Virus record (IMG/VR): IMGVR_UViG_3300027851_000021
Coordinates: 1-64,000 of that record
Length of the DNA: 64,000 nucleotides
Origin: a virus
Direction: 5' to 3' (one strand)
Shown here: positions 7,680 to 54,463 of the stretch, one piece after another
How positions within the stretch are numbered: position 1 is the stretch's first letter
How the letters are laid out: the number at the start of each line of letters is the position of its first letter
Notes under the pieces: generated by a model
Databases searched by the model: none
What the model saw: the letters and a program-made list of their open reading frames with translations, nothing else
Told to the model about the DNA's origin: nothing
Position numbers and translations under genes: made by a program

Positions 7680-10600
7680 ATGTCAAATAGCAGCACCTCT
7701 AATAATTATGATTTTACCATCAAACAAGGTGAGACATTTAATAAAGTAATTACCTGGAAAGATAACGCAGGTACTCCTGTTGATTTATCTAATTGGGCTG
7801 CTCGTATGCATCTCAAGATTCGTCTAGGAGAAGACGAAACAATCATACTAGCATTGACGACAGAAAACTCTCGTATTACCTTGGGTAGTGATGGTACTGT
7901 TGCTTTATTCATAGAAGCCAGTGTTACCTTACAATTAGAAAATGTCTTATATCATTATACCTTAGAATTAGTTAATGGTGATAATGTTAAACGTTTATTG
8001 CAAGGTAGAATAGACATAGATCCAGTAGTTACTATGCCTGGAGATTTTTTAGGTGATCTTACACCTCCTACAGGATTACCTCCATTAGCCACATTAGATG
8101 GTAGTGAATTACTTGCGGTATTAAAAAACCAAGTTGTCTACTCTGTTCGTGTAGATCAACTACCTGGTCAAGGATTTATTGATCCACATCTTTACGGTGC
8201 TAAGGGTGATGCTGTCTCTCTACCTAATGCTACTATTTCCATGGACTACTTAAGTGTTAGTCATGCAAAATACGCCTTTAAAGATAAAGACGTAGGTAAG
8301 ACTCTATATTGTGCAGGTAGCTGGCAAGATAATGGTAGCTCCAGTACTATTCAGAGTGTTGCCAATGGTATTGCATATCTATCAAGCCCTTTATTACGTA
8401 ACGGTCAGCGTTATGTTCTTTTTGGAACAGATGACACAGACGCACTTCAAGCTGCCTTTGATGCTGCAGAACGTATTATGATAGATACCCCAGGTAATAC
8501 TAATGATGGTACTGGTAATGGTATTCCAACATCAGGTGCAGTAGTACTTCGTCAAGGCGGATATATCGTAAAGAATACTCAAGCGCGTTTTGATGCAGGT
8601 AAAATTGCAGCACTTATGGTACCTAGACGTGTAGGATTGTATGGACAAGGACAAGGTTCTACTGCCATTTATACTGCCCCTGGTAACGTGGGACATTCAA
8701 TCGCAAATAAATACGCAAACACCGTGCCTGCAAATACCGCGGCTGATGAAAAAATCACACTTGCTGATTTCTCTCTTTACGGGTTGCGCGATATTCAGGG
8801 TGCTCAGTGCTTGAACGGTATTCACCTTGCTTTATCCATGGGTGGTTATTCAATGGTGGATGGTTATTGCCAGATGTACAACATCAACGTCCATGGAGCA
8901 AGAGGGCGCGGAATTTATCTTAAGGGGCGTGGGGAAAACTTCTTTACAAATGTGAATGTCAACTTTGCTTGTGATCATGGTTGGTACATGGACACCACGC
9001 AAGACAGTCGCTGGGTAAACTGTAACGCAGGTGGAAACTATTACGCAGGTTTCTTTATCTATGATAATGCTGCATCATCTTTCACTAACTGCAAATCATA
9101 TTATAACGGTTCCAACGGCGGCACAACGCCTGAACTTTGTTGTAACTGGTATATAAGTGATGCAAATCATTCTTACAATAAAGGTACTTGTATGTTTACC
9201 GCCTGCGAAGGGCAAGAAAGTCGCGGGTCAAGTATTGTTATTGATGGTGGTTTAAATCAGTTTGTAAACTGCCTTTTCTCTGACCCACGCAGAAATGCAG
9301 TTGGTGGAACAAGTCAACCAAGACCAACCATATGTGCCGGTATTCATATGCGTAAGAACGCTTCGAACAACGTCTTTGATGGCGTTTTCGTTCGCGCCTC
9401 ATTAGGCCTTGATTGGGGAGGGTCTACTGAAAATCATAATGGTGGTGATTACGCTCTTTATATTGAAGACAATTTAAGCGGCAACGCAAAACTTCGCGGG
9501 CCGCGCGGAAACAAAGGTCATATCTATACACTTGAACCTTCTGTGTACAACAATTCCAAAATTGGTGGTGTTGGTACAACCAACAAATTGAACTGTGGCC
9601 TTTATGTGGATGGTGATCCGTTACCGGGAGCATACCCAACTGCACCAACTATTAACCGTGCGGTAAGCTGGGACAACACAACTGCTGCAATAAACTTTAC
9701 TCTACCGTCCGACATGGGTGGTAGGGCTGTTCGTCATTATCAGATAGAAACAAAAACTGGCGGTGGTGAATGGGTTGCACAAAAAGGTGCTACTATTGTT
9801 ACTAATACACTTGCAAAAGTTACTGGACTAGCCCTTGGTACAACTTATCAAATAAGAGTGGCAGGAGTGAACGTTTTTGGCCTTGGTTCATATTCGGCTG
9901 AATACACCTATACCCACAATATTATTTATTCTATGAAGCGTCAGCTGTGTTCAAACAATCAGCGCATAACACCTTTCACTAACTCAATAACAGAACTTTA
10001 CATCAACACAACGCTTCATGCTAAGACGCCTTTTAATGCTAATTGGACAGGGATTCGCGTTCATTTTGATAACTTTGTCGCAAACTGGAACAATGGTTCT
10101 GAAATCACAACAGGCATGACAAGCGCAACTATGAAATGTTCCGTTCAGGTTGGCGATACGATTTATCCTTGCACTGGAACGGTTTCCATTGCTGCTGGGG
10201 GTCAAGGTTATTTAGATATTCCTAATCTGACTTTGCCAGCAGGAACTGATTTTTACGTGCATACCAAAGCAACCTTACCTGCTGGGACTAAAAACGTTCC
10301 GCAAAATACAGTACGTGACATGCCGATGTGGGATACTGGTCGTGTCAACACCAACGATAACTCTATTGACATAACTGTTTCTGGCGTTTCTCAAGGTGCG
10401 GTTGTTGGACGTACAGTCGCAGCTGGTGTAATTACTGCACTCTCATTCAATGCAACAACAGGTAAGGGGACACGCTTTACGGCAACAGCCCCTGATGTTT
10501 ATGCTTATGAGAAACAGGCGGGTGGCGTCATAGCCTTTAAGAAAATTGGTACAGCAACTACAGACGGTGCAGGAGGTGTTGCTTCAGTTACTCTGGTTGA

Positions 10601-11381
10601 CGGAACTCCCCCAACAGGCGTTACATGGGTAGCACCTTCCATAGTTGTAACTAACGGCTCACTCTATCCAGACAATGGTAACTCTTTGGGTTGGGCACCA
10701 AACATTATCACGGGTATTCCTGACGTCCCTGTCCGTACAGTGATGCTGTTGGGTGACACAATCATGAAGGGTGAACTTGTCAATACCACAGACGAACACG
10801 GTAACAATGGTCTTTATGAAGTTGGTATAGCAAGTCGTGTTGGACTTGGAAACGCTGGTATTGGTGGAGGGATTGGGGCATACCGTTTTACAACGTCTAC
10901 AATGACTAGAACAATGGGTTGTTACGCACCTTATTGTACTGACGCGATTGTGGACTTGGGGTATGGTGATTTCATTAACTCCAGAACAGCTGCCTCAACG
11001 GTTACAAATCTTCAAGCTATTAGAACTTCACTTGTGGCATTAGGGTTGAAGGTGAACTTTGCAACCATGCTGACACAAACAAGCTCAACTGACGGATATG
11101 TGACTGAGGGCAATCAAACTACAGGCTCAAACGGTCTGGGTGTAAACATTTCAACATTTACAGATACAGTTGTTGGTTCTATTCTTGATAACACCATCAT
11201 ATCCGATAATAATGTTATCAATGCTCGTGCTTTATTGTTGACAGGAAACGTCTTTAAACCTGGAACGACAAATGATGGTAACAGACCAAATGACGTTATT
11301 GGGGCAATCATGTTGAATGGTATCTCACGTGCTGGTATTGATGCTGCTTTCAAAGCATGTTTTAATTACCTTGTAAATTAG
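7680..11381 (+). CDS. tailspike/tail fibre with BppU-like base, beta-helix, FnIII and SGNH-like end
   Basis: A 1233-aa modular adhesin. Residues about 8-120 resemble the BppU-type baseplate-attachment domain (FTIKQGETF, WAARMHLK). Residues about 170-640 have a right-handed beta-helix/pectate-lyase look, with short repeated turns and many Asn/Gly. Residues about 653-740 form a fibronectin III domain (ending TYQIRVAGVN). The last ~210 residues look like an SGNH hydrolase: LLGDT near 1023, LGYGD near 1094 and DGNRPND near 1199. In active SGNH enzymes these blocks read GDS, GxND and DxxH, so Ser and His are both replaced. Codon style changes near 8690, suggesting that the receptor-binding part was exchanged. 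Confidence 0.75.
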   Translation: MSNSSTSNNYDFTIKQGETFNKVITWKDNAGTPVDLSNWAARMHLKIRLGEDETIILALTTENSRITLGSDGTVALFIEASVTLQLENVLYHYTLELVNGDNVKRLLQGRIDIDPVVTMPGDFLGDLTPPTGLPPLATLDGSELLAVLKNQVVYSVRVDQLPGQGFIDPHLYGAKGDAVSLPNATISMDYLSVSHAKYAFKDKDVGKTLYCAGSWQDNGSSSTIQSVANGIAYLSSPLLRNGQRYVLFGTDDTDALQAAFDAAERIMIDTPGNTNDGTGNGIPTSGAVVLRQGGYIVKNTQARFDAGKIAALMVPRRVGLYGQGQGSTAIYTAPGNVGHSIANKYANTVPANTAADEKITLADFSLYGLRDIQGAQCLNGIHLALSMGGYSMVDGYCQMYNINVHGARGRGIYLKGRGENFFTNVNVNFACDHGWYMDTTQDSRWVNCNAGGNYYAGFFIYDNAASSFTNCKSYYNGSNGGTTPELCCNWYISDANHSYNKGTCMFTACEGQESRGSSIVIDGGLNQFVNCLFSDPRRNAVGGTSQPRPTICAGIHMRKNASNNVFDGVFVRASLGLDWGGSTENHNGGDYALYIEDNLSGNAKLRGPRGNKGHIYTLEPSVYNNSKIGGVGTTNKLNCGLYVDGDPLPGAYPTAPTINRAVSWDNTTAAINFTLPSDMGGRAVRHYQIETKTGGGEWVAQKGATIVTNTLAKVTGLALGTTYQIRVAGVNVFGLGSYSAEYTYTHNIIYSMKRQLCSNNQRITPFTNSITELYINTTLHAKTPFNANWTGIRVHFDNFVANWNNGSEITTGMTSATMKCSVQVGDTIYPCTGTVSIAAGGQGYLDIPNLTLPAGTDFYVHTKATLPAGTKNVPQNTVRDMPMWDTGRVNTNDNSIDITVSGVSQGAVVGRTVAAGVITALSFNATTGKGTRFTATAPDVYAYEKQAGGVIAFKKIGTATTDGAGGVASVTLVDGTPPTGVTWVAPSIVVTNGSLYPDNGNSLGWAPNIITGIPDVPVRTVMLLGDTIMKGELVNTTDEHGNNGLYEVGIASRVGLGNAGIGGGIGAYRFTTSTMTRTMGCYAPYCTDAIVDLGYGDFINSRTAASTVTNLQAIRTSLVALGLKVNFATMLTQTSSTDGYVTEGNQTTGSNGLGVNISTFTDTVVGSILDNTIISDNNVINARALLLTGNVFKPGTTNDGNRPNDVIGAIMLNGISRAGIDAAFKACFNYLVN

Positions 11382-31660: not shown

Positions 31661-33986
31661 CGGTTTTATTTGGTTGACCATTATTTAATTCTTTTACAGG
31701 AGTTCCCCATAAATAACACATTTTAGCTTCAGCCACAAAAGGAACTTTAGTTAACTTCCAATCAACTGCCACTTGTGCAAATGTATCAATACCTATACGC
31801 TTAACCATTGCAACGATAGTTGGATCATTAGGCACCTCGATAACAATGGAGTCATGTACTAGATCCACGATCTTCGCACCCAGCTTAGCTATGATAGGAC
31901 GAATACGTATTGCTGTATGCGCCGTAATATCGGAAGCAGTAGATTGGTGTGGGAAGTTAGCAAATTCGTTTTGTACTCCATTCAAGTTTTCTTTTGTTAC
32001 CAGTCCAGGACGACATTTACGACCGAAGCAAGTAGTTAATGTCTGACGCTTTCTAGGTGCATTACGGCATTTATCTTGGAATGCTTTAGCAACAGGAAAC
32101 TGCTCCCAGAATGAATCAATTTCTTTCTGTGCTTGCTTTTCTGATATACCAAATTCTTCTGCCAATGAATGTGCAGATCTTCCATAGATAACACCGAAGT
32201 TAACGGCCTTAGCACGAACATATTGATCCTCGGTATAGGAATCACCATATCGATACGCAGCAGTCTCTTTATGCAAAGAACGATCAGTAGAATTATAAAT
32301 GGCCAATAAAGCAGGGTCTCCTGATTGAATAGCCAATGATCGTAATTCTGCCTGTGACGCATCCAAGTCTAATAATACATAACCTGGAGAAGCCATAAAC
32401 ATTGCCTTAAGGAGTGGATCTCTAGGAATATTCTGCAGGTTAGGATCTCTACAAGATAAACGACCTGTGCGAGTTCCATGGATTAAGAATGTAGGATGAA
32501 TCCTTCCATCATCGTGTACGTGTTTAGCCATACCAATAACATAAGTACTCAATGCCTTATTAGCTACACGCCATTTAGACAAAGCATGCTTAAATGGAAA
32601 TTCTGGCCATAAAGCAACTGTCTTAGCATCGGAACTTCTCTTAGCACGTCCTTTAACCCGAATACGAAGTTCATCGTACACATAAGCACACACTTGTTGC
32701 GAGCTACCTGGATTAAGTTCTCTTCCTACAAGCGTATTAATAGCCTCTTTAAGATCCTTAACTTCCTGTTCCAGCCTTATTTTATTTTCTTCCCATGCAG
32801 TCCAGTTAAATGCAAAACCATTAAGCTCCACATGATATAACAATTCCGACAAAGGAATAAAGGTTTGTGTATACAGTTTCTCCAGCTTAACGTCATCACG
32901 TACTCTTTGACGCAATACATTATAGATCTGAAGGGTTTTACTTAAGTCTTTACCTTGGTAACTAAAAAGCACATCGAATGGAATAGTAGAGTAATCCCGT
33001 TTAGATTTTGGAATACCTTGCTCTTCAAACCAGTTATCCACAATATGCTTATGCGTAGGTGCAGACAATACATCTGACGCTACTGTATCCAAGTCATGAA
33101 CACCGCGAGTTTCATCCAATGCATAATTAAGCAGCATTGTATCTTCGTCAACACGCGCATTATAACCATCACGTCTTAAAAATGCAATATCGAATTTACC
33201 GTTATGCCAGATCCATTTAATTTCAGGATCTTCCATTACATCCTTGAACATAGGAATTAATTCTGGAGGACAAATCCAAGCCACTCTAGGATCAAAACAG
33301 AAACCTGTAGTAAGGATTTTATCTTTACGGCGATTTAATCCTCCAGTCTCAATATCCGATGCTACTATACCAGCACGTTTAATTTCTCCCGCTAACCACT
33401 TAGCATTATCCTTTGTAATCAATCGTGTAACAGGTTCTATATAATGCTTTGTAGGGGTACCTTTGTAGATGTTGACTGCCATATCCAAATCTTCTTGGAA
33501 CTTCTTATACGATCCCATTCCACGTAAAAGAAATGCTGGATGTACTGCAGCAATAATACCATGCTTAGCCAATGGAGTCTCAAAGCGATGACCACGACAT
33601 TGGGTAATCTTTAAATTGTAATCTCCTGTTAATCCCCATAAAGCACCATTACCTAAAGCAACGATAACATCTCTAGGATGTTTCATCAATTCTGTATGCA
33701 GCCTGTTAGAGCAACATTGAACAGCGTTAGCCAGAATATCTGGATCCTTCTTAGTAGGAAAGCAAGATAAAGCTGTCATATATAATGGCTCTACGTCTAA
33801 TGGAAGGTTATCCATTAACATTTTACCGTTAGGACCCATAAAAGGCATCCCGGTAGCAAGTTCATTTGCCCCGGGACTTTCTCCTACTATAACGAACCTT
33901 GAATCCTCTGGACCACGATTACCAATTTTCCTACTATTGAAGGGGCAGTTATCGCACCCCTTCGCCTTCACATCACATGTATCCAT
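31644..33986 (-). CDS. uracil-DNA-glycosylase-like / DNA polymerase A fusion
   Basis: A 780-aa replicative polymerase. Residues 1-175 form a family 4 UDG-like domain with likely Fe-S cysteines (C11, C14, C75, C91), GESPGANE (35-42), MGPNGKML and HPAFLLRG (149-156). Residues ~200-380 form a 3'-5' exonuclease (DIETGG 211-216; HNGKFD 261-266). Family A polymerase follows: motif A DLDASQAEL (540-548), motif B RAKAVNFGVIYG (591-602), motif C VHDS (710-713), where the usual VHDE has Ser. The 5' nuclease domain is absent. It is the last gene of the preQ0 cluster transcript and touches dpdA. Confidence 0.92.
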   Translation of the reverse strand: MDTCDVKAKGCDNCPFNSRKIGNRGPEDSRFVIVGESPGANELATGMPFMGPNGKMLMDNLPLDVEPLYMTALSCFPTKKDPDILANAVQCCSNRLHTELMKHPRDVIVALGNGALWGLTGDYNLKITQCRGHRFETPLAKHGIIAAVHPAFLLRGMGSYKKFQEDLDMAVNIYKGTPTKHYIEPVTRLITKDNAKWLAGEIKRAGIVASDIETGGLNRRKDKILTTGFCFDPRVAWICPPELIPMFKDVMEDPEIKWIWHNGKFDIAFLRRDGYNARVDEDTMLLNYALDETRGVHDLDTVASDVLSAPTHKHIVDNWFEEQGIPKSKRDYSTIPFDVLFSYQGKDLSKTLQIYNVLRQRVRDDVKLEKLYTQTFIPLSELLYHVELNGFAFNWTAWEENKIRLEQEVKDLKEAINTLVGRELNPGSSQQVCAYVYDELRIRVKGRAKRSSDAKTVALWPEFPFKHALSKWRVANKALSTYVIGMAKHVHDDGRIHPTFLIHGTRTGRLSCRDPNLQNIPRDPLLKAMFMASPGYVLLDLDASQAELRSLAIQSGDPALLAIYNSTDRSLHKETAAYRYGDSYTEDQYVRAKAVNFGVIYGRSAHSLAEEFGISEKQAQKEIDSFWEQFPVAKAFQDKCRNAPRKRQTLTTCFGRKCRPGLVTKENLNGVQNEFANFPHQSTASDITAHTAIRIRPIIAKLGAKIVDLVHDSIVIEVPNDPTIVAMVKRIGIDTFAQVAVDWKLTKVPFVAEAKMCYLWGTPVKELNNGQPNKTVDSSN

Positions 33987-34735
33987 TATTTATATGCCCC
34001 AATTAATCCTTCAATCATACCAACGTTATAAGCCATATCAACATTATAACCACGACATAGTTCAAAGTATTCATTCCGAGGACGTAATGTACTTGTATCC
34101 CCATTATACTTTTTACCTTCCCATCCAGCTCTTAATGGTGAAGCTGAATCGATACCTTTAACGCCATACATCTTAGTACATGCAATATCATCTGAAAGGT
34201 TATTAGACATTCCTAAAAGATGTACTTGGAAATTACGTAAGGTTAAACGATTAACTAATGGAATCCTTGAACCTTGACGATTAGTAACTTCTCTTGGAAC
34301 ACCTACCATGAATGGAACATCTTTATGCATAGTTGTAATTTGTTCTACACACCATAAAGCTTCATCTGGATCTTTACCTTGAGCTGCTATCATATAACCT
34401 ACATTGCTCAAGAATTTCTTGCCATACTGCTGAATAGATTCTTTAGCCATTGCAATAGTTACTTCGGCTTCATTCAATTTATCTGGCAATACAATGAAAG
34501 TAGGATTAACGATAGAAGCTGCCATTACCATAGTATCCATAGGAACTGGAACTCCTAATTCGATAAGGCTATTGTCTAGAATAATAGTACCATCGAAACC
34601 TTCCAGCAATTGTTTATATAGATGCGGCTTAGCAATAATCTCGTGGGCAAGTAAAAGAAGGTAATTATTTAAAAACCCTCTTTCCTTCATTTGTAATAAA
34701 ACCTCAACAGGTGCGATTGGTGAATAACGTGCCAT
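33986..34735 (-). CDS. dpdA: DNA preQ0 transglycosylase (phage DpdA, TGT family)
   Basis: 249 aa from MARYSPIAPVEVL, chosen because AAAGGAG stands 11 nt upstream; an ATG at 34759 is also in frame. It is a compact tRNA-guanine-transglycosylase relative of the phage DpdA type, with LLLLAHEII, IILDNSLIELG and MVGVPREVTNRQG motifs, MSNNLSDDI and GIDSASPLRAGW. Such enzymes swap guanine in DNA for a 7-deazaguanine base. It follows queE by 30 nt and abuts the polymerase. With queC, queD, queE and folE nearby, the substrate is probably preQ0. Confidence 0.88.
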   Translation of the reverse strand: MARYSPIAPVEVLLQMKERGFLNNYLLLLAHEIIAKPHLYKQLLEGFDGTIILDNSLIELGVPVPMDTMVMAASIVNPTFIVLPDKLNEAEVTIAMAKESIQQYGKKFLSNVGYMIAAQGKDPDEALWCVEQITTMHKDVPFMVGVPREVTNRQGSRIPLVNRLTLRNFQVHLLGMSNNLSDDIACTKMYGVKGIDSASPLRAGWEGKKYNGDTSTLRPRNEYFELCRGYNVDMAYNVGMIEGLIGAYK

Positions 34736-34765
34736 TTCTCTTCTAACTCCTTTAACCATTGTTTA

Positions 34766-35536
34766 TTAGCGACCTTTATCATTGCTCCATACCAAAGCAT
34801 GAAGCTGTGGAAGGAATCTTGCTTTATTTAATACCGGATGTTTGTAAAGTTTCTCTGCGGTGTTACGATAATGTTCTAACAGCAACTTAACATGTTCATC
34901 ACCACTAATCTCTCCTTCAGGTAACCATTTATTTCCTAAGGACAAAAATAAAGGTGCATCAGGTGTTAACTGCCAGATATCACATGCAAAGTCAAAATCC
35001 TCTTCATCGAAGACTACTACCTTAACACATACTTCTGGATGAAATGTACTAGGCTGTTCTTTACGCATGTATTCAGCCTGATTAATAAACTGAATCCAAG
35101 GCTCATAAAGACTTTCATTAAACATTTCTCCCATACCTGGACCTTTAGGAGATACTGTAACTAAGTTACATTTCATAAGCCATTTAGGGAAGAATGTACC
35201 TTGTGTCTCGATTGCAACTTTCATTCCACCCATTTGGATAAGAGTAACTAACTCCTCCAAATTATGTACACAAGGATTACCTCCTGTAATAGTTACCCAA
35301 GGTGTATTATATTCAGCATTCATAGCTAATAGTTCTTCAGCTATTTCTGCTGCGGTCTTATATTTAGCCCAGGCTTTAATTTGTACTGGGTCTACTGCAT
35401 GCTTGGAATCACACATAGTACATTTAGAATCACATACTCCTAAACGAAGGAAGAATGTTTGTTTTCCACACATAGAACCTTCGCCCTGAATTGTAGGACC
35501 AAATAATTCTATTAATGGCAATGTTTTTGATTTCAT
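34766..35536 (-). CDS. queE: 7-carboxy-7-deazaguanine synthase
   Basis: A 256-aa radical-SAM enzyme that converts carboxy-tetrahydropterin to 7-carboxy-7-deazaguanine. The opening GPTIQGEGSMCGKQTFFLRL and the CDSKCTMC cluster motif (residues ~34-41, CxxxCxxC) are diagnostic, followed by TITGGNPCVHN. It is read from the promoter at 35560-35588 with AAGGAG before the start. Length is normal for the family. Confidence 0.95.
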   Translation of the reverse strand: MKSKTLPLIELFGPTIQGEGSMCGKQTFFLRLGVCDSKCTMCDSKHAVDPVQIKAWAKYKTAAEIAEELLAMNAEYNTPWVTITGGNPCVHNLEELVTLIQMGGMKVAIETQGTFFPKWLMKCNLVTVSPKGPGMGEMFNESLYEPWIQFINQAEYMRKEQPSTFHPEVCVKVVVFDEEDFDFACDIWQLTPDAPLFLSLGNKWLPEGEISGDEHVKLLLEHYRNTAEKLYKHPVLNKARFLPQLHALVWSNDKGR

Positions 35537-35559
35537 AGGAGAGCTCCTTAAGTTAATTT

Positions 35560-35588
35560 ATAATAGCATATTTCTTCGGAAATATCAA
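35560..35588 (-). promoter_or_regulatory. promoter of queE-dpdA-polymerase
   Basis: Minus-strand TTGATA (35583-35588), a 17-nt spacer and TATTAT (35560-35565). The -35 box lies just inside the end of the upstream exonuclease region. Confidence 0.6.
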
Positions 35589-35595
35589 GCGCATT

Positions 35596-36237
35596 CTATT
35601 TGTCTTTCCCACTAAATGCCGATTCCCGTACGGACAATGGCAGTTTGAAAAATACCTTACCAACTGCACGAACGTCTTCTAACGCATTGTGAGCACCTTC
35701 AAAACCTTCACCGAACAAGAATTCATGTACTTCTGTAAGTGTAGGGTTCTTATAAGGACCAAAGCCATAACGTAACATCTTTTCTGTAGCAGGTAATTTA
35801 CAAATAGGCATGTAAGTCTGCATAGTACAGAAATATTTCTTATAACGGTAAGACTGTTTGATATCATTGTATGTTCGACGCATATTAATATCTAACAATT
35901 GCTTATCAAACCAATTATTATGTGCTACCATAAGCTTAGCAGGTCTTACAAAATCTTTCCATGCATCTAAAACGATCTTACGGTCAACGCCTTCATCCAT
36001 AGCGCGTTCGAAGGTGATTCCGTGTGCTTCAAAGGCTTTAATCGGCATTTCAGTATAACCATCTGGCTTAATGATCATATCAAATGTACCTAATTCAGTT
36101 CCATCCGATTTATATAATACAGTCGCAAGCTGTACTATATGAGGTTGTTCTTTGTGCGTCATAGGTAATTTTTTATTAGGTAAGCCAGTAGTCTCAGTAT
36201 CGTAGGCTGCCATAATAGCTTGTGGTATCATTTCCAT
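35596..36237 (-). CDS. DEDDh 3'-5' exonuclease (DnaQ-like)
   Basis: 213 aa with AYDTETTGLP near residue 11 (Asp and Glu of motif I), VAHNNWFDKQLL near 103 (motif II) and the late HNALEDVRAVGK near 184 (motif III, His and Asp). This is the epsilon/RNase T-like fold and could proofread or trim DNA ends. It lies between queD and queE in the modification operon. Confidence 0.9.
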   Translation of the reverse strand: MEMIPQAIMAAYDTETTGLPNKKLPMTHKEQPHIVQLATVLYKSDGTELGTFDMIIKPDGYTEMPIKAFEAHGITFERAMDEGVDRKIVLDAWKDFVRPAKLMVAHNNWFDKQLLDINMRRTYNDIKQSYRYKKYFCTMQTYMPICKLPATEKMLRYGFGPYKNPTLTEVHEFLFGEGFEGAHNALEDVRAVGKVFFKLPLSVRESAFSGKDK

Positions 36238-36240
36238 TTA

Positions 36241-36744
36241 TTACCTCGATTGTGCTGGATATGTTGCAATCCCATTAGGTGTTTCCCATACCTTGATATA
36301 AGCTAATTCTCCCATACCTTCACAACGTTTTGCTATAGGTACTAAAAGACGCTCAAACCAGTGTTTAGCCATATTCTCTGCAGTAGGTACAAAAGGTACT
36401 AAGTATAGTTTACCCCCAGAACCTTCTCCAAGCCAATATCCTTGTTCATCAATTACTTTCTGTGCATTAGTAAGGTTATCATAAAATAAACTTGCTAATG
36501 GATCTTGGATCCACAATGTCATTCCATGATCACAAGGTGCATCGATATATTCCATCATAAGTTCTTTTAAGAACCCAAAATCTAATACCATACCTTCTTG
36601 TTCTCCGGTTTCAAACAATTTACCTCTTACACAGGCTTGAACAGTATATCGATGTCCATGTAGGTTTTTACATTTCGATCCATGATGCGTCACTCTATGT
36701 CCCGCATCTATTCCGATCTCTCGGATAATTTCAAATGCACTCAT
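36241..36744 (-). CDS. queD: 6-carboxy-tetrahydropterin synthase
   Basis: The 167-aa second enzyme of preQ0 synthesis. Zinc-binding histidines and the catalytic Cys appear in DAGHRVTHHGSKCKNLHGHRY (given in part), followed by GMVLDFGFLKELM and CDHGMTLW. It lies 9 nt after the folE stop. Length and motifs are normal. Confidence 0.95.
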   Translation of the reverse strand: MSAFEIIREIGIDAGHRVTHHGSKCKNLHGHRYTVQACVRGKLFETGEQEGMVLDFGFLKELMMEYIDAPCDHGMTLWIQDPLASLFYDNLTNAQKVIDEQGYWLGEGSGGKLYLVPFVPTAENMAKHWFERLLVPIAKRCEGMGELAYIKVWETPNGIATYPAQSR

Positions 36745-36753
36745 TTAATACTC

Positions 36754-37512
36754 CTAAAATTTATGTCCAGCTATTAAGGTCAAGAATTCAGACTTTGCGG
36801 AGGGATTCATAGCAAATACGCCACGCATAACTGAAGTTGTAGTCTCAGAATCATCCTTAACGCCTCTCCAGCACATACAGAAGTGTGATGCTTTAAGAAC
36901 TACCGCTAATCCTACAGGTTCTAATTCTTTTTCCAAGTAGTCGGCTAATTGTACAGTAGCTTCTTCTTGAATTGTCGGACGAGAATTAATCCAATGTGCT
37001 AAACGATTGAATTTCGAAAGTCCAATTAGTTTTGATCCAGGGATAACACCGATCCAAACATTACCGATAATTGGTGCCATATGATGTGCACACATTGAAC
37101 GAATTTTGATTGGACCTACAACCATCATTTCATTCAGTTTCTTAACGTTAGGAAAGCTTGTAAGTTCTGGCGCTTTATTAAAACGACCCATCATTACTTC
37201 CTGGATGTACATCTTAGCAACACGCTTACCAGTCTCTTTAGTATTATGATCATTTTCACGATCAATAACTAAGGTATCTAGTAAGTTCTCAATATGTACT
37301 TGGGCTTCTTTTACAAGTTCGTCCAATTCACCTTCTTGAATAAAGTCGGCAATACAGTCGTTAGCAAAGAAAGGCATTTCTGCCTCTCTTAAGCGTTGAC
37401 GAATACGTTCGGATACTTTTAACAAAGGTGCTTTTTTAGACATTTCATTCATCAGTGACATATTCTCTAAATTTTTATTGGCTTGTACTTCTATTGGGTA
37501 ATCTTCACTCAT
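36754..37512 (-). CDS. folE: GTP cyclohydrolase I
   Basis: This 252-aa enzyme makes dihydroneopterin triphosphate, the first step toward preQ0. The N-terminal ~75 residues are an extension; the core has MCAHHMAPIIGNVWIGVIP (zinc Cys and His), LIGLSKFNR and RPTIQEEATVQLA. The late SHFCMCWRGVK supplies the second Cys. It starts 3 nt after queC and leads into queD. Confidence 0.95.
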   Translation of the reverse strand: MSEDYPIEVQANKNLENMSLMNEMSKKAPLLKVSERIRQRLREAEMPFFANDCIADFIQEGELDELVKEAQVHIENLLDTLVIDRENDHNTKETGKRVAKMYIQEVMMGRFNKAPELTSFPNVKKLNEMMVVGPIKIRSMCAHHMAPIIGNVWIGVIPGSKLIGLSKFNRLAHWINSRPTIQEEATVQLADYLEKELEPVGLAVVLKASHFCMCWRGVKDDSETTTSVMRGVFAMNPSAKSEFLTLIAGHKF

Positions 37513-37515
37513 ATT

Positions 37516-38181
37516 CTACTCCGCATATTTAGTTGGGTCAACAATGCCTGCTTTAGCAAAGGCTTCTTTTCTTGCACGACATGTTGGACAAGTACCACAA
37601 TGATCTTCATCACCTTTATAACAAGACCAGGTATACTTCAAAAGGGATTCATCAAGGCTTGCACCTTTATTAACGATATCCGCTTTAGATGACCATTGGA
37701 ATGGTGTAAGCAAACGAGTCTTTTGATAAGTACCAATAAAGATCGCATTCGCCATAGCACCATTGAATTCTGGTGTACAATCCGGATAAGCCCAGTTAGC
37801 GGCATCTTCAGCATGGGCACCATAATAAATGAAATCATAACCTTCATGTTGTGCTTTAGAAGCAATGACAGAGAGCATCAGACCATTACGAAATGGAACA
37901 TATGTAGGAGAAATGCCTTCAATTTGATCGTAGCTAATGTTCGGAATTTCTACTGCGCGATCTGTGAGCATAACCCCTTCGATCTTCGGTAATACTACGA
38001 TTTCACGTTCAACACCAAGCTCTTTACAAAGTGTTAATGCGTACTCTAATTCTTTAATATGTCTTTGTCCATAATCGATACCGAGGGACTTGACATTCTT
38101 TGCGCCATGTTCAGCTACAGCCATCATTAATGTAACTGAACTGTCTAAACCGCCACTGTGTAATACTAATGCTCTTGACAT
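37516..38181 (-). CDS. queC: 7-cyano-7-deazaguanine (preQ0) synthase
   Basis: A 221-aa ATP-dependent enzyme that converts carboxy-deazaguanine to preQ0. The PP-loop LHSGGLDSSV lies near residues 7-16 and the zinc site CYKGDEDHCGTCPTC near 186-200. The protein ends soon after the zinc site. No glutamine-amidotransferase domain is fused, unlike the Gat-QueC of phage 9g, so archaeosine-type bases are not expected from this gene. First gene of the cluster, after the terminator at 38219. Confidence 0.95.
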   Translation of the reverse strand: MSRALVLHSGGLDSSVTLMMAVAEHGAKNVKSLGIDYGQRHIKELEYALTLCKELGVEREIVVLPKIEGVMLTDRAVEIPNISYDQIEGISPTYVPFRNGLMLSVIASKAQHEGYDFIYYGAHAEDAANWAYPDCTPEFNGAMANAIFIGTYQKTRLLTPFQWSSKADIVNKGASLDESLLKYTWSCYKGDEDHCGTCPTCRARKEAFAKAGIVDPTKYAE

Positions 38182-43025: not shown

Positions 43026-43466
43026 TTAGAAATCTCCTGGAGCTACTTGTAAGCATGTATAACCTTCTTTACGCCACATATTTACTACCTTTTGACGATC
43101 CTCAAAGATAGCAATTACCTTATCACCAGGATACATAGATTCAACAGCACGTAACATTTCCAATTTAATAATGCAATCATCTCGATGATCCATTCCTGGA
43201 CGCATCATTAATGTGCCAAATGGAATATTATGCTTTTTAAGCCATAAAACAGTTTGTTTACGTACTACAGCACTACGCCCAGTAATGATATGACATTTTT
43301 GTCCTGCCATACTTAAAGCATGCATAATTTCTACAACACCGTGATGAATTGTATCATCAACACATGCCTTATTCCAAGCTACCCAATCTTTCTTACCTTC
43401 TTTAGGTAAATAATGCTGGCGATGCTCATTTAATGCAATAGTACCGTCTAAATCAAATATATACAT
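43026..43466 (-). CDS. HAD-family phosphatase (polynucleotide 3'-phosphatase-like)
   Basis: 146 aa with motif I FDLDGTIAL at residues 4-12, motif II IITGRS near 60 and an acidic motif FEDRQKVVNMW near 125. The size and pattern resemble the phosphatase half of T4 polynucleotide kinase. Its place next to ligase and an endonuclease gene suggests end-healing of DNA or RNA; this is inference. Confidence 0.8.
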   Translation of the reverse strand: MYIFDLDGTIALNEHRQHYLPKEGKKDWVAWNKACVDDTIHHGVVEIMHALSMAGQKCHIITGRSAVVRKQTVLWLKKHNIPFGTLMMRPGMDHRDDCIIKLEMLRAVESMYPGDKVIAIFEDRQKVVNMWRKEGYTCLQVAPGDF

Positions 43467-51240: not shown

Positions 51241-51504
51241 CTAAGTTGATGTGGTTAAGGAAACAATCTGATAATCGTTATATCGTCCAGCGGGACTCTT
51301 GCTTGTATGTGTTTGCTGCATGACTACCCCATTTGCAACCATATCTTCTAAAACAGGTCTCCAGAACTCTGGCTTAACTTGTGGTCCAAGTCCAGCTTGT
51401 AACATAGTAGGCGAAATCCGCGGATAGATTTCTAGGATATGCTTTATACGGATTGCAATGGCTTCGAACTCATCGCTGTCAATTTCGTCTACTGTATCTG
51501 TCAT
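51241..51504 (-). CDS. small winged-helix-like protein
   Basis: 87 aa with HILEIYPRISPTMLQAGL, WRPVLEDMVANGVV and YNDYQIVSL, reading like a winged-helix of the kind that binds DNA. It lies directly upstream of the primase gene after the promoter near 51541-51569, and could assist origin binding or regulate the operon. Confidence 0.65.
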   Translation of the reverse strand: MTDTVDEIDSDEFEAIAIRIKHILEIYPRISPTMLQAGLGPQVKPEFWRPVLEDMVANGVVMQQTHTSKSPAGRYNDYQIVSLTTST

Positions 51505-51586: not shown

Positions 51587-52462
51587 CTATGAAGTTTGCC
51601 AAAATTCCTGAGGTTCGCCTACTTCAATATACTTCCTGAATTGCCCCCAGTATTTGTCAAAGTTACCTGACATGTTTCTGCCATTTATTTCTTCTTCACG
51701 CACAAGGGCTTTCGCTTGATGCTCAACAGGTGAGGCATGCATTGGGGCCGACCCCACCAAACGTTCATACAGCTCCAAATCCTTTTCGATCACAGGGTTC
51801 TCACCATCATGAGTAAGGTACGAGACCCTCGCACATCGAGCAGCTGATATTTTGGCCAAGACACTAACTGTAAGTTGTTCACGTTCTTCAGTAGAGACAT
51901 ATGGTAAATGGAATAAAGCGTTTCTTGTGTCATCGAAAGCAACCCTTCTTGGTTCATGTTCTTCCATAGCACGTTTCATATGCTTAGCTAAATGGCAGAT
52001 ATTAGGATCAGCATCTGGATGATCCCGTAACTCAAAGAAATTAGTCCATTTAGATGACGTTACAATAACGTTCATAAATTGGAATGGCTCAAGAATACGA
52101 TTAGCAACTTGTTTATGTAAACCGAGGTTCATCATTTCTGTAGCTGTCTTAGCTGCATCTTTAGCTGCAATATTCCAGAGATCCATTGCATGTAAACAAT
52201 CTACCGGAGATAACTCTTCCTTAGCTTGCATACCACTAACATTCTTTCCCCAATGAATAGGCATTGCAGGTTTACTAAGTACTTGTTCGATAATCTTCTT
52301 AACCGGGATAGCGCGACTGCTTGATGCATTACGAGAAAAGACCCGATGGGTCATAAACTCAGAATGGATCAAACGGGGATAGCGTAGTTGTAGAGTGGTG
52401 AGTCTACTTTCACCCCATCTGGTATCTTCGATAACCTTAGCTTCAAATCCGTGTATGTCCAT
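51587..52462 (-). CDS. thyX: FAD-dependent thymidylate synthase
   Basis: A 291-aa flavoenzyme that makes dTMP from dUMP. The ThyX signature appears as THRVFSRNASSSRAIPV (residues 38-54), a variant in which the usual NExS reads NASSS; this variant is common in phage ThyX. HPDADPNICHLAK and ISAARCARVSY fit the substrate site. It follows the ACP gene with a TAATG overlap. Confidence 0.93.
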   Translation of the reverse strand: MDIHGFEAKVIEDTRWGESRLTTLQLRYPRLIHSEFMTHRVFSRNASSSRAIPVKKIIEQVLSKPAMPIHWGKNVSGMQAKEELSPVDCLHAMDLWNIAAKDAAKTATEMMNLGLHKQVANRILEPFQFMNVIVTSSKWTNFFELRDHPDADPNICHLAKHMKRAMEEHEPRRVAFDDTRNALFHLPYVSTEEREQLTVSVLAKISAARCARVSYLTHDGENPVIEKDLELYERLVGSAPMHASPVEHQAKALVREEEINGRNMSGNFDKYWGQFRKYIEVGEPQEFWQTS

Positions 52463-52704
52463 TATTCTTGTGCCTCCAGCATTTGTACGATTTCTCCTAA
52501 TGTCTTATCAGAAGATAGTTGTTCGTCTTTAATTTCAATTTCAAATTCCTCTTCCAACATCATGATTATTTCCATGCAGTCTAAAGAATCTGCACCTAAT
52601 GATGACAATGTTGTATCATCTTCGATGTCGTCAGCATTTTCGATTAGCATTTGGTCTATAAAAACTTTAACCACTACGGATTTAATGTCGGGTACTTGTT
52701 TCAT
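52462..52704 (-). CDS. acyl carrier protein
   Basis: This 80-aa four-helix protein has the phosphopantetheine motif GADSLDCMEIIMMLEEEF, with Ser40 as attachment site, and a strongly acidic surface. Length and spacing match bacterial AcpP. It is coupled to thyX (TAATG) and to the gene upstream (ATGA). An ACP in a phage nucleotide-metabolism operon is unusual; it might recruit host acyl or holo-ACP enzymes or be a host-takeover factor. Confidence 0.92.
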   Translation of the reverse strand: MKQVPDIKSVVVKVFIDQMLIENADDIEDDTTLSSLGADSLDCMEIIMMLEEEFEIEIKDEQLSSDKTLGEIVQMLEAQE

Positions 52705-52946
52705 ACTTCTAATGCTCCTACACTCATATCAGCGTCATCAAGTTCTTTTTCAATACCGTCAAAGTCAAGATTCTTGGCGCGCATTTCATCGTTCCATTTA
52801 CCTTGTGAAAGTCTGGTATCTTGATCTTTACAGATATGTAATAATGCTCCATATACTGCGTCTTCCTTAGTATTTGCACCAATTCGTACCATATGCATAA
52901 TACCATCGAAGGCACTTAGAATAGATACTACCCATGACTTAATCAT
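52701..52946 (-). CDS. unknown protein upstream of ACP
   Basis: 81 aa after AGGAG. The first half is hydrophobic-helical (SWVVSILSAFDGIMHMVRIG), the second half acidic (DFDGIEKELDDADMS). It overlaps the ACP start by 4 nt (ATGA), so it may work with ACP. No family recognised. Confidence 0.65.
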   Translation of the reverse strand: MIKSWVVSILSAFDGIMHMVRIGANTKEDAVYGALLHICKDQDTRLSQGKWNDEMRAKNLDFDGIEKELDDADMSVGALEV

Positions 52947-53660: not shown

Positions 53661-53705
53661 TTCTCGGAACTCAATCCACCACCTATAACATTCGCCCACT
53701 TTTAG
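53661..53705. repeat. element copy 3 (partial)
   Basis: CACCACCTATAACATTCGCCC followed by ACTTTTAGCG matches the CACCACATAACACTCACCC-ACTTTTACCG block of 30990-31046 with few changes. It covers the last codons of the 53683-54060 gene. Confidence 0.4.
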
Positions 53706-54060
53706 CGATTTGATCCTTAGGTAGATTTCTTTTAAGGAAAACATTCTCGAGCCAAGTAACTTTGCCTCCTAGGGCGGTAACCTGCGTTTTCGTACGGCGT
53801 AAATCATCTCTACGGTTAATTTCTCTAGTAACCTTAGCTTTGTATTCTTTAGCACGTTCCAAGTAAGATAGTAGGGAATCATACATATCATTCCAATCTT
53901 GAACCATAGCTACTTGTTCATCAGTAGGTTGGATATCGATATAAGGACGTAAATCCATATGAATGTCAAAATCACTCTGTGCATCAATAACATCGCTTCG
54001 AGCATTTTTACTTTCGACCAATAGTTCCCCATTGGACATTAAACGCATATCTTCTGACAT
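53683..54060 (-). CDS. unknown charged helical protein
   Basis: 125 aa with a coiled-coil middle (MYDSLLSYLERAKEYKAKVTRE) and basic C-terminus. AAGGGG precedes the start, and the 29-aa membrane peptide ends 2 nt upstream. No family recognised. Confidence 0.65.
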   Translation of the reverse strand: MSEDMRLMSNGELLVESKNARSDVIDAQSDFDIHMDLRPYIDIQPTDEQVAMVQDWNDMYDSLLSYLERAKEYKAKVTREINRRDDLRRTKTQVTALGGKVTWLENVFLKRNLPKDQIAKSGRML

Positions 54061-54062
54061 AA

Positions 54063-54152
54063 TTACCCCTTATACATGACTACGATAAACAGAGTAACCA
54101 TTGCAGCTACTCCTAATATAAACCCACACACTACTATACCAAACGTTTTCAT
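54063..54152 (-). CDS. 29-aa membrane peptide
   Basis: An open frame MKTFGIVVCGFILGVAAMV... ending MYKG. Its start overlaps the stop of the gene upstream (ATGA) and has AAGGAA 6 nt before it. One transmembrane helix fills residues 4-26. The coupled start and clean frame make it real; function unknown. Confidence 0.65.
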   Translation of the reverse strand: MKTFGIVVCGFILGVAAMVTLFIVVMYKG

Positions 54153-54463
54153 TCTATTTCCTTAATATTCAACTGTGTATATGCAGTTATAACCGTATTT
54201 TCTTCTTGCCATTCTTTAGTAGTATGTGCACGAACAGCTTCAATAGGAATGCCACTGCGTTCCATATCGACATATTCGCCAACATACTTTTCACCTGTAA
54301 TGGTAGTAACGTTAAGTTCTTTAGCTCTTGCCTTTAAACCAGCTTTATAGAAATCCTGTAAGTCTGTACGTTCTTTAATTTCATCACGCAGTCTTCCCAG
54401 TTCATCTATAAGAAACTCTGGCGTAGCATTAGCCGGCATTACTAGTTTAGGTTTCTTAGCCAT
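54149..54463 (-). CDS. unknown small protein
   Basis: 104 aa with a helical middle (PEFLIDELGRLRDEIKERTDLQ) and VTTITGEKYVGEY. This pattern is seen in phage proteins that accompany replication, but I cannot name a family. Coupled to the 29-aa peptide. Confidence 0.6.
   Translation of the reverse strand: MAKKPKLVMPANATPEFLIDELGRLRDEIKERTDLQDFYKAGLKARAKELNVTTITGEKYVGEYVDMERSGIPIEAVRAHTTKEWQEENTVITAYTQLNIKEIE

Follow-up and report, generated by a model that had tools for sequence, protein, structure and literature searches.

Acyl carrier proteins (ACPs) have been reported in several phages. The one in Erythrobacter phage R6L has a function that "remains unclear" (PMC5463345), another was described in Vibrio phage R16F (PMC10152775), and cyanophages P-HM1 and P-HM2 were found to carry an ACP together with an ACP synthase (PMC3037559); we confirmed the AcpS match in Prochlorococcus phage P-HM2. 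Roseobacter prophages carry fabG-acpP-fabF sets (PMC8224337). An ACP (gp30) was also reported in Alteromonas phage R22Y (PMC11705849); its deposited sequence (PP212876.1; L179, L180) matches neither the phage-ACP profile nor ThyX. Literature searches returned no functional test of a phage ACP.

The ACP gene analysed here, from a siphovirus, resembles these systems to different degrees. The roseobacter acpP is viral too, but lies with fabG and fabF, which the gene studied here does not. P-HM1 and P-HM2 share with our phage an ACP without a ketoacyl synthase, but have an AcpS-like gene of their own, whereas our phage has none. The ACPs of Erythrobacter phages R6L and ZS04 and of Brevundimonas phage Bajun stand alone in genomes lacking a ketoacyl synthase, as ours does, and so do those of Xanthomonas phages phiXF1 and PhiXhv-12, Pseudomonas phage pf16 and Olleya phage Harreka_1 (compare phrog_5934 and phrog_4154). 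Yet these proteins are just 22-36% identical to ours and have other neighbours, and none is encoded beside thyX. Stand-alone phage ACPs are therefore already described, and the present one is a further, new member.

Results

An AcpP-type protein encoded by a siphovirus

The window, that is, the whole stretch of DNA analysed, covers 64,000 of the 66,307 bases of viral record IMGVR_UViG_3300027851_000021. The record has siphovirus genes for terminase, portal, tape measure, DNA polymerase, a DUF3854 primase-like protein and a 7-deazaguanine pathway. Immediately downstream of the portal gene, a 1233-aa protein with an SGNH-esterase-like C-terminal part is encoded (window 7680-11381), and the replication region includes a polynucleotide kinase phosphatase domain (HAD_PNKP, E 3.4e-29; 43026-43466) near an ATP-dependent DNA ligase gene. 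The features around the ACP gene are listed in Table 1.

Table 1. Genes at and around the ACP locus, in window coordinates
Feature	Position	Strand	Remarks
DUF3854 primase-like protein, 810 aa	48794..51226	-	Used as query to find relatives
87-aa gene	51241..51504	-	Downstream border of cargo site; conserved beside primase in most relatives
ThyX, FAD-dependent thymidylate synthase, 291 aa	51587..52462	-	Motif THRVFSRNASS
ACP, 80 aa	52462..52704	-	ATG start, TAA stop, AGGAG-type ribosome-binding site
Orphan ORF, 81 aa	52701..52946	-	Acidic; helical by weak prediction
Possible ORF, 48 aa	52943..53089	-	Hydrophobic stretch; overlaps end of MazG-like gene
MazG-like nucleotide pyrophosphatase, 157 aa	53070..53543	-	phrog_5658 E 3.4e-61; phrog_3301 E 3.7e-23
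125-aa ORF	53683..54060	-	Outer gene of variable cargo segment
104-aa gene	54149..54463	-	Upstream border of cargo site; adjoins 87-aa gene in relatives

The translated ACP is MKQVPDIKSVVVKVFIDQMLIENADDIEDDTTLSSLGADSLDCMEIIMMLEEEFEIEIKDEQLSSDKTLGEIVQMLEAQE. Its Ser40 (codon 52585-52587) belongs to the DSL motif, within GADSLD, and occupies the phosphopantetheine-attachment position. The protein matches Pfam PP-binding (PF00550; E 1.2e-13, 51.5 bits for a cut-off of 20.8) and phrog_5934 "acyl carrier protein" (E 2.4e-13), and among solved structures bacterial ACPs come closest (B. subtilis ACP 2x2b, E 1.2e-9), which bears out the description in the earlier note of a full ACP with the DSL motif and Ser40. 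The residues by which E. coli AcpP is recognised by AcpS and fatty-acid synthesis (FAS) enzymes (D35, D38, E41 and E47) are all found. A single-sequence structure model has its helices in ACP order, at a pLDDT of only 61; its best Foldseek matches are ACPs, but weak ones (E 0.07 or worse).

On profile comparison, Pfam, PHROG and NCBIfam group the protein with AcpP-type ACPs. It is like bacterial AcpP (PF00550; TIGR00517) in its length, DSL motif, acidic AcpP-type helix II and pI of about 4 (4.05), and unlike it in being phage-encoded, in lying outside a fab operon and in scoring below the cut-offs of the housekeeping equivalog models (TIGR00517, 49.0 vs 70.45 bits; PRK00982, 52.4 vs 71). Identity to bacterial ACPs is 30-34%, with the serine and helix II kept. 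Recent capture from a host, or contamination, is unlikely, since the gene scores below the NCBIfam AcpP equivalog cut-offs and has the composition of its genome (GC3 0.32 for a genome mean of 0.29, sd 0.06). No second copy of this ACP was present in the data searched. The sole match in a bacterial genome, Acidobacteria L121, was rejected as the source because it is only ~33% identical and lies beside a beta-ketoacyl synthase-like gene.

No fatty-acid synthesis genes accompany the ACP

Neither a ketoacyl synthase nor a holo-ACP synthase (AcpS) was found on the 66-kb record. A fragment of a fatty-acid synthesis operon would have fabF, fabG or fabD beside acpP; the neighbours are instead ThyX, a MazG-like protein and orphans. 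The earlier observation that no fatty-acid gene surrounds the ACP thus holds, and for the ketoacyl synthase it extends to the entire record. Genes for adenylation, ketosynthase or acyltransferase enzymes were also absent among the proteins scanned, and nothing among the genes examined would supply an enzyme for the proposed acyl signal. The same absence speaks against a dedicated carrier for some phage-specific acylation, such as that of a surface molecule, a signal molecule or a hypermodified base. The phage does modify small molecules, as its 7-deazaguanine pathway (FolE, QueD, QueE, QueC and a DpdA-like protein) indicates, but a related Brevundimonas phage with annotated QueC, QueD and QueE has no ACP, and we consider a dedicated carrier very unlikely. 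The pathway genes form an apparently complete DNA-modification set at window 33986-38181, with a weak DpdA-like match (26 bits).

ThyX is not a recurrent companion of the ACP

Two overlaps flank the ACP gene: ATGA with the 81-aa ORF (52701-52704) and TAATG with thyX (at 52462). Both are real, and the earlier note had taken them as a three-gene coupling that suggested a shared role. If so, the ACP, the 81-aa protein and ThyX would act jointly, probably from a single transcript. But such overlaps are frequent in this genome: 24 of the 86 same-strand neighbour pairs in the window, as delimited by a simple ORF caller, overlap by 1 bp (18 pairs) or 4 bp (6 pairs). The chain also runs on upstream, from the 81-aa ORF into the 48-aa ORF by ATGA and from there into the end of the MazG-like gene. 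Since this is the ordinary gene spacing of the genome, the overlaps indicate only probable co-transcription. Promoter and terminator scans returned about as many sites as in shuffled sequences.

ThyX is recognised by Thy1 (PF02511; E 3.7e-11, 43.6 bits for a cut-off of 24.8) and phrog_85 (E 1.6e-81), and has the [RT]HRx7S motif, although it falls below the TIGR02170 equivalog cut-off (45.6 vs 87.9). ThyX chemistry involves FAD, NADPH and methylene-tetrahydrofolate and has no acyl step. The 81-aa ORF has no relatives in Pfam, PHROG, NCBIfam, PDB or the phage collection, and its predicted structure is weak (pLDDT 49). Matches to it in two contigs (L004, L005) were dismissed as chance: they cover 28 residues within a longer, unrelated reading frame.

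The pairing is also absent elsewhere. PF00550 was sought across the whole of 66 thyX-bearing viral contigs (47 + 19) and found in none, the phage-ACP profile matched nothing in the regions flanking any of 80 ThyX loci, and none of the 19 viral relatives sharing the primase has an ACP. Conversely, ThyX was missing from the flanks examined around all 80 ACP-bearing viral loci, and among 50 ACP-bearing viral contigs searched whole it occurred in one, about 120 kb from the ACP; many contigs in these counts are fragments, so that single absences are not proof. Judged from these genomes, ThyX and ACP clearly do not recur together. The shared role deduced from the overlaps is therefore unsupported, and joint action of the three proteins seems to us highly improbable. 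Thymidylate synthase looks like a chance companion, with no demonstrable link to the ACP beyond a common cargo segment and, probably, a common transcript. The Brevundimonas phages StAshley and MaInes lack the ACP. Their annotated thymidylate synthase is located elsewhere and has no Thy1 match (StAshley: L107 45337-46167), and this phage group thus appears to swap types and positions of thymidylate synthase.

A probable variable cargo site in the early region

In primase-sharing relatives the gene order is 104-aa gene, 87-aa gene, primase, 105-aa gene and RuvC-like gene. The first two are separated by 126 bp (L131) or 24 bp (L146) in relatives and by 2.6 kb in the window, where the interval holds the 125-aa ORF, the MazG-like gene, the 48-aa and 81-aa ORFs, the ACP gene and thyX. 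An interval of this size filled with extra genes looks like a variable cargo site. In a further relative (L128) the same two genes are 1.7 kb apart, with other ORFs between them, one of them MazG-like by eye. Comparison of gene order thus places the ACP gene at a variable site of the early region, between two conserved genes; the border on the side of the 104-aa gene is less certain because homology of that gene is weak (E 1e-4 to 1e-7). The genus-level relatives give no sequence here, since the sequence of one (G001) stops near window 32 kb and the other (G002) is broken across 44-56 kb.

Genes at such a site might be passengers with little or no effect, kept only briefly. The variable contents of the site among relatives would fit this, as would the lack of the ACP in all 19 primase-sharing records and in both Brevundimonas phages. 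Yet the ORF is intact and has a ribosome-binding site, its serine and helix II are preserved despite the low identity to bacterial ACPs, and phages of many lineages carry ACPs. We therefore find a passenger gene doubtful.

Phage ACPs usually stand alone

A tblastn search with E. coli ACP matched 39 of 50,697 phage records, a lower bound that takes in unannotated and prophage-like fragments; the rarity of ACPs noted earlier is thus borne out for cultured phages. The window ACP itself returned nothing useful from the phage collection, probably because the low-complexity filter masks the query, and E. coli and phage ACPs were used as queries instead. At least 321 IMG/VR stretches encode an ACP relative by an alignment-based scan, although some may be host contamination; a pattern scan built on a single protein found none in viral contigs, compared with the more than 300 found by alignment.

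No common neighbour and no annotated fatty-acid synthesis gene was seen at the ACP loci that we read, in Erythrobacter, Brevundimonas, Xanthomonas, Pseudomonas, Olleya, Vibrio, Erwinia, Prochlorococcus and Flavobacterium phages. A ketoacyl synthase was absent from 16 other ACP-bearing phage records and from 48 of 50 ACP-bearing viral contigs (present in two). Stand-alone ACPs are thus the rule, and would require host enzymes if active. In Xanthomonas phages phiXF1 (L114 781-5489) and PhiXhv-12 (L115 1-3743) the ACP gene has DNA gyrase/topoisomerase subunit genes on both sides or close by.

Aligning 18 phage ACPs showed invariant D35, D38, E41 and E47 in helix II (E. coli positions), and S36 and M44 retained in 17 of the 18; this conservation is partly built in, because the set was collected with ACP queries. 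These residues are contacted by AcpS and FAS enzymes. The exception at S36 is Vibrio phage 277E43-1 (L119 3495-4028), whose ACP domain carries Asn where the phosphopantetheine serine would be, in an otherwise intact helix II, so that at least one phage ACP cannot be modified. Vibrio phage ACPs and that of Pseudomonas phage pf16 are extended at the C-terminus by a segment with an FQQM(L) motif (L119, L122, L123, L116; L181 21711-22259); Vibrio phage R16F has an extension of this type without a recognisable ACP domain.

Some viral contigs place the ACP among Fe-S assembly genes. NifU_N, Fe-S_biosyn and ACP (IscU-like, IscA-like and carrier) are consecutive in IMGVR_UViG_3300032326_000791 (L220 2983-3908), an ACP is followed by IscA in another contig (L246 4974-5597), and IscA and/or IscU lie within about 3 kb of the ACP in six more (L204, L210, L213, L219, L224, L247). 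ACP is a known partner of IscS, and these neighbourhoods may hint at the role of stand-alone phage ACPs.

Discussion

The features assembled here lead us to give about an even chance to the following reading: an AcpP-type ACP carried as a siphovirus cargo gene, modified by host AcpS and acting in trans on host acyl-ACP enzymes. The host holo-ACP synthase would most likely attach 4'-phosphopantetheine to Ser40. The product would then serve as an extra or competing holo-ACP for those host enzymes that dock on AcpP through its acidic helix II, with the acyl transfers of fatty-acid, phospholipid, lipoate or lipid A metabolism as candidate processes, and the phage would thereby influence the host acyl-ACP pool during infection. 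It is from the conservation of helix II, the face for AcpS and AcpP partners, in the 18 phage ACPs that we infer a holo-ACP mimic acting on the host acyl-ACP machinery; modification by host AcpS, binding of host enzymes and a benefit to the phage are likewise what we infer. The AcpS-like gene of P-HM2 fits a role that requires the modified form, whereas the serine-less ACP of Vibrio phage 277E43-1 would be unfavourable to it. The earlier suggestion that the phage recruits host ACP-binding enzymes is possible in this light, as phage ACPs in general keep the helix that partners recognise.

Binding might also matter more than acyl transfer. A regulatory decoy would bind SpoT, IscS or MukB and alter the stringent response, Fe-S assembly or chromosome organisation, and acylation may then be dispensable. 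The recognition helix is indeed conserved without FAS genes, Vibrio phage 277E43-1 offers a natural S36N variant, and the ACP follows IscU and IscA genes directly in one contig (L220) or lies beside IscA in another (L246). Nevertheless, 17 of the 18 phage ACPs compared retain the serine, and the window genome has no tblastn match to IscU or IscA; we see a decoy as possible but rather unlikely. For stand-alone phage ACPs in general, the present one among them, the IscU-IscA-ACP runs of other contigs and the serine-less variant hint at takeover factors that dock onto non-lipid host partners (IscS and Fe-S assembly, SpoT, MukB) and do not feed fatty-acid synthesis, a broader idea that we hold to be improbable.

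Annotations repeatedly present phage ACPs as auxiliary metabolic genes serving fatty-acid synthesis, but almost all that we examined stand alone, with no ketoacyl synthase. The present locus is one more such case, from which the coupling to thyX has been removed as a misleading clue. The comparison points to two simple questions for phage ACPs in general: do they carry the modification, and what are their binding partners in the host?
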